Positions 11,272 to 14,855 of a stretch of 64,000 nt of DNA are shown piece after piece. Each line of letters opens with the position of its first letter. The first letter of the stretch is position 1. The DNA is from Urbifossiella limnaea (GTDB lineage: Bacteria; Planctomycetota; Planctomycetia; Gemmatales; Gemmataceae): contig NZ_CP036273.1 of NCBI RefSeq assembly GCF_007747215.1, positions 4,758,322 to 4,822,321 of the forward strand, written 5' to 3'. A program made the translations under genes and the position numbers. Below the pieces are notes generated by a model. The model was not told the DNA's origin. It saw nothing but the letters and a program-made list of their open reading frames with translations, and searched no databases.

Positions 11272-11413
11272 GACCGGCCTCCTCGCGGGCGCGGGCCGCG
11301 TGCATCCGGACGAGGAGTTGGCCGAGCAGGTCGCGGAGTTGCCTCTGGCGATCGGCCGGGAGGTGCGCCCAGACCGGCGGCGGGTTGGTCGCCGGCGGCG
11401 GTGGGGGCGTCAG
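11264..11413 (-). CDS. Possible small recombinase-associated protein (non-ATG start)
   Basis: An open frame ends with a TGA at 11264-11266, overlapping the recombinase ATG (ATGACTGA). It encodes PPVWAHLPADRQRQLRDLLG and then an amphipathic helix rich in L/R. No ATG or GTG lies in frame after the previous stop near 11519. The CTG at 11413 is the only plausible start seen. The protein-like composition and the coupling to the recombinase are the support; the absence of a normal start and RBS is the weakness. Confidence 0.4.
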   Translation of the reverse strand: MTPPPPPATNPPPVWAHLPADRQRQLRDLLGQLLVRMHAARAREEAGHD

Positions 11414-11586
11414 GCGCGGGGGGGCGCGAGGCGTCGTGCGGGGGCTGACATGCGGGTCCTCCGGGTGCGACGGCGAGCCGGTCTCGACACCACGCGGCCA
11501 GTTCCAGCAGCGCCATCACCCCGATGGTAACCGGTCCGCCGGGCGGAGACCCACCCCCGGCTTGAGGGGCAGTCTGCTTGGTTCTT

Positions 11587-11589
11587 CTC
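11587..11589. other. Right junction triplet of serine-recombinase element
   Basis: CTC, the second copy of the triplet at 7800-7802. Removing everything between the two copies restores the transposase frame. Confidence 0.6.
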
Positions 11590-12498
11590 CTGCTCCCACC
11601 GCTCGTGGTACACGACCGGGGCGTCGGCGGCCGGCAGGTCGTCCGGGCTCAGGAGGTCGGTCAGGAGCCGGGTCCGCGCCCCGCACCCGGGCCGCCCCGG
11701 GTCGTCGTGGGTGTACTCGATCACCCGCACCTCCAGCCCGCGGCGGCCCGCCGCCCGGTCCGCGGGCGACGGGTAGAGGGCGGCCAGGTACGACCCGTCG
11801 GGCAGCCGCCGGGTCGGGGTCAGGATGGCGTGGGCCGGGACCCGGGCGAGCAGGTGGGCGCCGGTCCGCAGCACCCGCTCGGCCAGCGGGTACCCGAAGA
11901 ACCCGCGGTCCCACAGCAGGAGCATCCCCGGCCCGAGCCGGTCGACCAGCGGCCCGGCCATGACCTGCTCGCCCCGCCGCCCGGGCTTGATCGACAGCCC
12001 GCAGATGGCTCGCGTCCCCAACTCGCACAGGGCGAGGAGCCGCAGCTGGGGGAACGCCCCGGCCGCCCGGGCGGTCCCGGGCCGGCCGAACACCCGGGCG
12101 TTGTCCGGGGTGTCGGGCAGGTCGAGGGTGGTCCCGTCGAGCCCCATCAGCCGCCACCCGCGGTAGCCCGCCCCGACCGTCTGGTGGGTGCCCATCGGGC
12201 GGGCCACCTCCTCGAACAGCCGCCGGAGGGGCGGCACCCCGAGCCGGTCGCGGGCCTGGCAGAAGGCCGAGGAGACCGGGTCCGGGTCGTCCGTCCCCGG
12301 GTGGAGCCGCCGCCAGACCTGGGGGACCGGGAGGTCGGCGAACAGCCCGAGGGCGACCACCAGCCGGGCGGTCGCGTCGGCCGGGATGCGGCGGACCCGA
12401 CGGGACTGCCGGCCGGTCACGTCCAGGATGTGGGCGATACGATCGGGCGGGATCAGGTGGTACAATCCCCGCAGGAACGGGGTCGGGTCAGTGGCCAT
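11587..12498 (-). pseudogene. IS4-family transposase, N-terminal fragment
   Basis: It begins at the ATG at 12498, preceded by AAGGAGG, and runs to GAG at 11587-11589 (…VVYHERWEQE), where the serine-recombinase element starts. The first two catalytic Asp regions are present (GLDGTTLDLPDTPDN and LLLWDRGFFGYP). The frame continues past the junction into foreign sequence for about 60 residues before stopping near 11410. It is the partner of 7383-7802. Confidence 0.92.
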
Positions 12499-12587
12499 GC
12501 ACACCGGTGCCTCCTTGCGTCGTGGGATCGGTAGCAACCCCACAGTACCAAGGAGGCACTGGCTTTACGCCTATCTGAGCGGCATTG

Positions 12588-12597: not shown

Positions 12598-13523
12598 GTC
12601 AGTTCCATCACCGGAAACCGCCCCTGCTCCTTGAAGTACCTCGTGTAGAATCCGACAAGGTGCGGCGCGTCCGTCGGGCACTGCGCCGCCAACGACGTGA
12701 CCGACCCCTCAGTCAGTTCCTGGCTGACCTCCGCGAGCAGTGCGAGCCCAGCTGGCAGGGCGTGTTCCGGCTTCGTCACGACGTAGCTGAACAGGCCGTT
12801 TACCCGCTTCGCGTTCAGCCCCTCGGCGCCGAACGCCCCGAGTCGGAAGCACGGCGCGAGCGGGTCCACCTTCTTCACGTCCGGCCAGTTCGGGTTGTCG
12901 AGCCCGACCCCGACCGCCACCGGTCCGCCGCCACCCTCCACGACCCAGAACGCCTCCGCCGGGAAGTGGGGGCTGTTGAACACGTGCTGCTCCAGTTCCG
13001 CGTCCGACACCCGTACCACGCCGCGGCCCATCGCCGCCAGCGCCGGGATGTCGGCCCGCGTCAGCCGGCGCACGGGGTTGCCGCCGCGGCTGGCGATGGT
13101 CGGCAGGTCCACCGGGTCGGCGGCGTAGTTCACCATGTCGCGCGCCTTATGGAACCCGCGGTCGGCGAAAAACCCGAGCACGCCGTCCCAGTCACGGCGG
13201 TACGCGGTGAACAGTGACCGCACGCCACGATCGCGGGCACTCCGTACGGCCGCAGCATACAGCGCCGCGGCGACCGCTTCGTAGCCCTTGCGGCACCACG
13301 GGTAGCCCAGCCGCCCCTGGTCCGGCTCCAGTACGCAGTAGCCGACCGCCATGTCGTTCTCGACGGCGTAGAACCGGCTCGTCGGGTCGAACCCGCGCGC
13401 GCGCGTCCGCCGACGGACATCGTCCTCGGTGGCCGGCTTGAAGCCCGGGAGCGCGAACGCGGCGCCGTTGAAGAGGACGGCTTGCGTGCGCTCGTCGCCG
13501 GGTTGGTAGGTGCGAATGGTCAC
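12591..13523 (-). CDS. GNAT-family acetyltransferase
   Basis: 310 residues from the GTG at 13523, chosen because VTIRTYQPGDE is the usual first strand of the fold. An ATG at 13577 would add 18 unlikely residues. The first GNAT-like half runs to about residue 140 (ENDMAVGYCVLEPDQGR, then the RDRGVRSLF region). A second beta-rich half follows (EAFWVVEGGGGPVAVGVG). It would transfer an acyl group from acyl-CoA to an unknown amine. It is now bracketed by mobile elements, with the IS4 nest touching its stop codon and the ISAs1-type element 88 bases above its start. Confidence 0.78.
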   Translation of the reverse strand: MTIRTYQPGDERTQAVLFNGAAFALPGFKPATEDDVRRRTRARGFDPTSRFYAVENDMAVGYCVLEPDQGRLGYPWCRKGYEAVAAALYAAAVRSARDRGVRSLFTAYRRDWDGVLGFFADRGFHKARDMVNYAADPVDLPTIASRGGNPVRRLTRADIPALAAMGRGVVRVSDAELEQHVFNSPHFPAEAFWVVEGGGGPVAVGVGLDNPNWPDVKKVDPLAPCFRLGAFGAEGLNAKRVNGLFSYVVTKPEHALPAGLALLAEVSQELTEGSVTSLAAQCPTDAPHLVGFYTRYFKEQGRFPVMELTL

Positions 13524-13600
13524 TGGGCGGGAACCCGCGGGCGAGTCGAGGGTGATGAAGTTGATGCTACAACGCATTCGCGCTGGGGACAACTCGCCGG

Positions 13601-13610
13601 GGCCGCCCGG
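13601..13610. repeat. Target-site duplication (left) of ISAs1-type element
   Basis: GGCCGCCCGG, identical to 14846-14855. Confidence 0.93.
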
Positions 13611-13687
13611 CAGGACGATTGCAAAGTCCAGAATTCCGGTTAACGTGTTGACGGGTTGCGAGTTACTCACCTCGGGATGGAGCCCCG

Positions 13688-14820
13688 ATGTCACCCACTT
13701 CCGACTCACTGGTCGCCGCGTTCCGCCAACTCACGGACCCTCGCCACCGCCGTGGTGTCCGCCACCCGTTCGCGGGGTTACTGTCCGTCGTCTTCCTGGG
13801 GCTGCTGAGCCGGCACCCCGACTTCGCCTCCCTCGCCCGGTGGGCCAAGCGGCACTGGCCGGCCCTCCGGGAGGCGTTCGGGCTGACCCGCCCGTACGCC
13901 CCGCACGCGACGACCTACAGCCGCGCGGCCGCCGCCTTCTCGATCGACGAGTTCCGCGGCGCCCTGGCCGGGTGGCTCGCCCGGGTGATGGCCGACGCCC
14001 CGACCGCGGCCGCGGTGGACGGGAAGACGAGCAAGCAGGCCCACGACGCCGACGGCGACCCGATCCACGTCCTCAACGTGTTCGCCCACGACGCCCGGGT
14101 GTGCCTGGCCGACTGGCCGATCGGGGACGGGAAGGAGACCGAGCCCGAGGTCCTCAAGGCCCACCTGGACGAGTTGTTCGCCGCCTGGCCGTCGCTCCGG
14201 GTGCTGACCGGGGACGCCCTGTTCTGCCAGCGCCCGCTGGCCCGGGCGATCGTCGAGGCCGGGCGGGACTACGTGCTGGCGGTCAAGGACAACCAGCCCG
14301 ACCTGCACGAGACGATCCGGGCCGCGTTCGCCGACGCCACCCCGGCGTCGGCGAGCGCGACGGCGCGGGGAAAAAACGCGGGGCGGTCGAGACCCGGCGG
14401 GTCTGGTGCGACGCGGCGACGGCGGACTACGCCCGCGAGGCGCTGAACGTCCCCGGCCTGCGGGCGGTCGTGCGGGTGGACCGGGAGACCCGAGGGGCCG
14501 ACGGCGCCCGGACGTGCGAGACGCGGTACTTCGCCACCAGTCTCGACCCGGCCGTGGTGACCGCCGCCGCGTTGCTCCGGCTCGTTCGCGGGCACTGGTC
14601 GGTGGAGAACAGCCTGCACTTCGAGAAGGACCGGTGGTGGGACGAGGACCGGCACGTGTGCCGCCGGCCGGGGTTGGCCGAGCGCTTCACGACCCTGCTG
14701 AGCGCGGCCGTGAGCGTGTTGCGGGTACTCAACCCCGGGGGTAAGGGCGAGCCGCTCAAGGCGCAAGCCGACGCCCTCAACTGGGACATCGAACGCGCCA
14801 TCAACCTCATGACCCGCTGA
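13688..14820 (+). CDS. ISAs1-family transposase, needs -1 frameshift
   Basis: Frame 0 runs from the ATG at 13688 to a stop at 14446 and carries the N-terminal domain (LTDPRHRRGVRHPFAGLLSV) and the first catalytic regions (AAVDGKTSKQ and LTGDALFCQR). The C-terminal third (RRVWCDAATADY, RGHWSVENSLHFEKDRWWDE, IERAINLMTR) is in the -1 frame and ends at 14820. The switch falls at the heptamer A AAA AAC. The joined product is about 377 residues, the usual size for the family. It is either programmed frameshifting, transcriptional slippage, or a simple mutation in an A6 run. Confidence 0.9.
14371..14377 (+). other. A AAA AAC slippery heptamer in ISAs1-type transposase
   Basis: In frame 0 the codons are GGA AAA AAC GCG. 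Slipping back one base gives the frame CGC GGG GCG GTC, which encodes the rest of the transposase. The spacing and phase match the canonical X XXY YYZ rule. GC-rich sequence follows and could fold, but no defined stimulatory structure was worked out. Confidence 0.7.
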
Positions 14821-14845
14821 TACCTGCGACTTTGCAATCGTCCTG

Positions 14846-14855
14846 GGCCGCCCGG
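14846..14855. repeat. Target-site duplication (right) of ISAs1-type element
   Basis: GGCCGCCCGG, the second copy of 13601-13610. Confidence 0.93.

Follow-up and report, generated by a model that had tools for sequence, protein, structure and literature searches.

In the window analysed here, the whole stretch of 64,000 nucleotides from Urbifossiella limnaea, one transposase gene is divided between two reading frames. Is this gene broken, or does the element that carries it depend on a change of frame to make its transposase? A reading based on the letters alone (the sequence-only reading) had proposed a programmed -1 frameshift in an ISAs1-type transposase and had placed it at 13688–14820. 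This range does span both open reading frames, but the element itself is longer; the perfect ends and the duplication described in that reading were confirmed, the ends bounding the element at 13611–14845 and the duplication flanking it. The features are as follows.

13601–13610, no strand: target-site duplication, left copy GGCCGCCCGG, 10 bp
13611–14845, forward strand: complete ISAs1-family insertion sequence, 1,235 bp, recognised by its inverted repeats, four genome copies with different duplications and the ISAs1 profile
13611–13628, forward strand: left inverted repeat CAGGACGATTGCAAAGTC, 18 bp, perfect; the ends are the same or nearly the same in relatives
13688–14446, forward strand: ORF A, 252 aa, N-terminal domain and first part of the DDE domain, frame 0, stop TGA at 14444–14446
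14018–14020, forward strand: codon of the first catalytic Asp (AVDGKT), in ORF A, invariant in alignment A1
14213–14215, forward strand: codon of the second catalytic Asp (TGDALF), in ORF A, invariant in alignment A1
14371–14377, forward strand: slip site A_AAA_AAC, in phase with frame 0
14377–14820, forward strand: -1 frame portion (ORF B), contributing 147 aa downstream of the slip; the joined protein has 377 aa
14605–14607, forward strand: codon of the catalytic Glu (HWSVEN), in the -1 frame only, invariant in alignment A1
14828–14845, forward strand: right inverted repeat, 18 bp, perfect
14846–14855, no strand: target-site duplication, right copy GGCCGCCCGG, 10 bp

Members of the ISAs1 family are about 1.2–1.5 kb long, carry inverted repeats and produce a duplication of 8–10 bp, and the element agrees with them in all three respects, with 1,235 bp, 18-bp repeats and 10-bp duplications. 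Elsewhere in the window, an IS4-family transposase ORF lies on the reverse strand at 11410–12543. Its profile is matched only up to position 289 of 332, and the ORF then continues into unrelated-looking sequence, so that its C-terminus may be frame-shifted or truncated.

The NCBIfam ISAs1 profile (314 positions) is shared between the two frames, with ORF A matching positions 2–195 and the -1 frame matching 202–313. The joined protein matches 2–313 of 314 (NF033564) with a score of 166.4 bits against a cut-off of 70 and contains the DDE triad with the DDE_Tnp_1_assoc and DDE_Tnp_1 domains; the profile is also matched by all six members of alignment A1. The -1 frame is open from 13510 to 14820, across the ORF A stop at 14446, and the GC content at third codon positions switches from frame 0 to the -1 frame at the heptamer AAAAAAC, which frame 0 reads as GGA AAA AAC, in the canonical X_XXY_YYZ phase. 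The open reading frames, the profile match and the GC shift thus agree with the sequence-only reading that the transposase is split exactly at A AAA AAC. That reading was also right that the catalytic C-terminal part is reached only by slipping: because both aspartates precede the slip site and the glutamate follows it, the full DDE triad exists only in the fusion. On the forward strand of the 64 kb, a run of six A occurs a single time, at the slip site, and about 0.01 such runs would be expected in the element from base composition. The other nine lysine codons of the gene are all AAG, and AAA is used solely at the slip site.

Homopolymers are commonly mis-sequenced, and an error of sequencing or assembly could in principle create such a split. 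We found four full copies of the element in the genome (7.8 Mb, one contig), each of 1,235 bp, three of them identical and one with a single substitution. The A6C run and the split are retained in all four, at four insertion sites, and the 10-bp duplications differ among them (GGCCGCCCGG, GGCCGGCGAG, CTGGAATAGA and GGAGCCCATC). Four split copies with different duplications indicate that the element was already split when it moved, either several times or very recently. The equal run length in the four copies and an identical frame relation in relatives from independent genomes exclude a sequencing error, to which we assign practically no probability. Sister copies with A5 or A7 and one continuous frame, which had been named as the mark of a simple indel or error, were not seen; the A7C run of relatives reflects a G>A substitution, and these genes are still split. 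A second explanation is that a single-frame transposase was recently broken by an indel in the A run, leaving copies that are dead or mobilised in trans. The same genome does hold single-frame ISAs1 transposases (L005 and L007–L009), but all four insertions of this element are split.

Genome searches revealed the same split at the same codon in ten further loci of other planctomycetes, both within the family of the host and in other families of the class. Protein identity to the element, where measured, ranged from 46 to 83% (L047/L076, 83%; L138, 68%; L140/L078, 49%; L141, with a second copy L148, 48%; L150, 46%). Seven of these relatives (L047, L138, L140, L150, L141, L174 and L175) are preserved as whole or almost whole elements whose ends match, and flanking duplications were found at L138, L141, L174 and L175. 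Among the others, L143 is a fragment and L048, which has acquired a second indel, is decayed; L142, whose slip site is degenerate, was excluded from the counts. L139 (G335:C193), with an ORF of 419 aa, was considered as a single-frame relative and rejected. It is treated as derived or decaying because it retains the same A run and an internal insertion brings back frame 0. When 392 genomes of the phylum were searched with a profile at an E-value of 1e-45, no further split members emerged, and no relatives were found on plasmid records at 1e-30. The -1 clade is rare and so far found in one class.

Including that of the element itself, there are 11 distinct split sites, all of which align on one in-phase AAA codon and have the general form X_AAA_NNN. 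The slip codons are GGA or GAA AAA AAC (A_AAA_AAC) in the element, L047 and L138; GAA AAA AAG (A_AAA_AAG) in L174 and L175; GAA AAA AGG (A_AAA_AGG) in L150, L139 and L143; GAA AAA AGC (A_AAA_AGC) in L048; GAT AAA AAA (T_AAA_AAA) in L140; and AGT AAA AGG (T_AAA_AGG) in L141. A canonical in-phase heptamer (A_AAA_AAC or A_AAA_AAG) is therefore present in five elements. The run is A6 in the element and A7C, A7G4, A6G4 or A4G6 among relatives; the 11 sites differ by substitutions alone, and no frame-restoring indel in the A run was found across them. The middle slip codon is AAA in 11/11, compared with 27/94 of the other lysine codons in these genes.

Selective constraint was found on both sides of the slip site. 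The dN/dS values upstream of it and in the -1 frame were 0.24 and 0.27 for the element vs. L047, 0.35 and 0.42 for the element vs. L138, and 0.09 and 0.18 for L150 vs. L141; purifying selection acts on each half in its own frame. Within the 22-codon overlap, the comparison with L047 showed that the -1 frame is constrained (dN 0.10, dS 0.43) while frame 0 is unconstrained (dN 0.21, dS 0.15). In a tree of 59 proteins, built without L174 and L175, which were found later, the six -1 elements formed one clade (100/100). A larger group, also at 100/100, unites them with elements that carry a +1 split and with four transposases read in a single frame, and excludes the remaining 39 single-frame transposases; of the four, L022 is nested, and three are Arenicellales copies on long branches, of tentative placement. 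A recent indel is contradicted by this clade, by selection in both frames and by the seven other whole or almost whole elements that are split in the same way. The four concordant copies and the conserved split in relatives exclude a local indel, which we consider extremely improbable.

Conservation of both halves would also be expected if they were made as separate proteins that associate. By inspection, however, no start codon occurs in the -1 frame from the slip site up to the conserved ETRRVW block, and GTG codons first appear deep within the catalytic domain. The join also falls within the DDE domain, and this explanation has very little chance of being correct. Programmed recoding of this ISAs1 transposase is close to certain. 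Since moving relatives keep the same split, we regard the split as a built-in brake on jumping and not as an error.

How the frame is changed is a separate question, as ribosomal slippage and transcriptional slippage leave the same sequence footprint. The sequences suggest that -1 ribosomal frameshifting, as in IS1, is the most likely mechanism. It is favoured because five elements hold in-phase canonical heptamers and because A_AAA_AAC is a proven slip motif of insertion sequences that has no known stimulator (PMC4066793). Under this mechanism, a mobile ISAs1-family element would limit its own transposase through programmed -1 recoding. The majority of ribosomes would translate ORF A to its stop and yield the 252-aa protein, with both aspartates and no glutamate; this product is presumed inactive because the catalytic glutamate is missing, and by analogy with other insertion sequences it may bind the ends as a repressor. 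A minority would slip back by one base on A_AAA_AAC, with tRNAs at AAA (Lys) and AAC (Asn), and produce the transposase of 377 aa, which has a complete DDE triad; this tandem slip predicts the junction peptide ...ARGKNRGAVETR. At the six non-tandem sites (L150, L139, L143, L048, L140 and L141), a ribosomal mechanism would need single-tRNA slippage.

The main competitor, which we judge rather unlikely, is programmed transcriptional slippage, in which RNA polymerase would insert one A on the A6-7 run (or A6G4 or A4G6) in some of the transcripts, from which the full transposase, with the junction ...ARGKKRGAVETR, would be made by ordinary translation. A one-base insertion fits every site of the clade, including those of L150, L140 and L141, which have no tandem heptamer; A6-7 and A6G4 runs suit slippage by RNA polymerase; and the authors of GeneTack prefer this mechanism for transposase families showing both shift directions (PMC3711429). 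On the other hand, bacterial slippage is efficient at about nine A or T, for which A6-7 is short, and the in-phase canonical heptamer is found in the three closest and two distant elements. Transcriptional slippage would also accord with a very strong hairpin just upstream of the run:

14323–14359, forward strand: predicted near-perfect 16-bp RNA hairpin that ends 11 nt upstream of the A run

At -34.7 kcal/mol, this hairpin exceeds all 62 background positions and is the strongest in the gene; L047 has a weaker hairpin at equal spacing from the run. A role as a pause or slippage modulator is possible. Downstream of the slip site, no conserved 3' structure was found: the AGACCC-GGC-GGGTCT stem of the element was considered as a stimulatory hairpin and rejected, being absent from L047 and unremarkable in rank. 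No conserved Shine-Dalgarno-like stimulator was apparent by eye. Stimulators of either type often accompany -1 ribosomal frameshifting in insertion sequences but are not obligatory. Of the regulated frameshift originally proposed, recoding is supported by copies and relatives, and the ribosomal part is likely, short of proof.

Relatives in the Gemmataceae at about 30–38% identity have a split in the same linker as the -1 elements, here in the +1 direction and located at T2-5C5-6 or C8 runs that frequently take the form TCC CCC TGA:

Loci of the +1 clade: L049/L185–L194, L051/L195–L199, L066, L031, L050, L054, L060, L023, L021, L071, L074 and L061

The +1 site is retained in ten copies of one genome and five of another, at different insertion sites. 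Each of the 12 members examined has a hairpin whose end is no more than about 3 nt from the run. For most members its strength ranks in the top tenth to top quarter within the gene, but it is weak in L071, and the case for a hairpin role at +1 sites is therefore suggestive only. These T2-5C5-6 runs with a hairpin just upstream resemble those of a Roseiflexus IS630 element, in which T5C5 and a hairpin direct transcriptional slippage (PMC5009743), and this likeness of the sister clade also speaks for transcriptional slippage at the A run. We tentatively propose, at somewhat less than even confidence, that a whole ISAs1 clade of planctomycetes is recoding-dependent, with opposite shifts in one DDE linker: the -1 shift would occur at A_AAA_AAN, and the +1 shift at a hairpin-flanked T/C run that ends in TCC CCC TGA or a similar sequence. 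A 2016 review knew of no insertion sequence with +1 ribosomal frameshifting (PMC5009743); if the proposal is true, the +1 clade would be the first, or else a second family with hairpin-driven transcriptional slippage. Outside the planctomycetes, some ISAs1 relatives (Akkermansiaceae, Luteolibacter and others) show a frame change in the tblastn match, which may be decay or recoding:

Frame-changing loci outside the planctomycetes: L096; L093, L100, L101, L104, L108–L110, L112 and L113

Frameshifting has been described in IS1, IS3, IS5 and IS630 (PMC5009743). With IS1, the element shares A_AAA_AAC in the same phase (the insA/insB -1 ribosomal frameshift), a short ORF A product, a full transposase made solely after the slip and the lack of an evident stimulator. 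However, the transposases are unrelated, and IS1 is split between a DNA-binding protein and the catalytic domain, whereas the present gene is divided within its DDE domain, after the second Asp and before the Glu. IS3 and the IS427 group of IS5 also have two overlapping ORFs and a complete DDE only in the fusion (PMC3281130), but differ in family, split position and stimulators. The Roseiflexus element resembles only the sister +1 clade, in its T/C run beside a 5' hairpin; it is unlike the -1 clade, and its transposase family is also different. The single-frame ISAs1 family (NF033564) agrees in transposase profile, DDE triad, size, terminal inverted repeats and 10-bp duplication, but the present transposase occupies two frames and groups with the +1 elements, apart from 39 sampled single-frame transposases. 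In the open-access literature searched, no paper was found that describes programmed frameshifting for ISAs1. GeneTack contains +1 and -1 clusters among DDE_Tnp_1 transposases (PMC3711429), and ISAs1 members could sit unseen in them because this Pfam domain is common to several families of insertion sequences.

These findings extend transposase recoding to ISAs1. The split is placed inside the catalytic domain, and therefore the short product retains two of the three catalytic residues. Annotation pipelines are likely to label such active elements as pseudogenes or as two separate genes. The related -1 and +1 clades, which have their splits in a common linker, form a natural test case for the origin of opposite recoding signals in homologous genes and for comparing ribosomal with transcriptional mechanisms.
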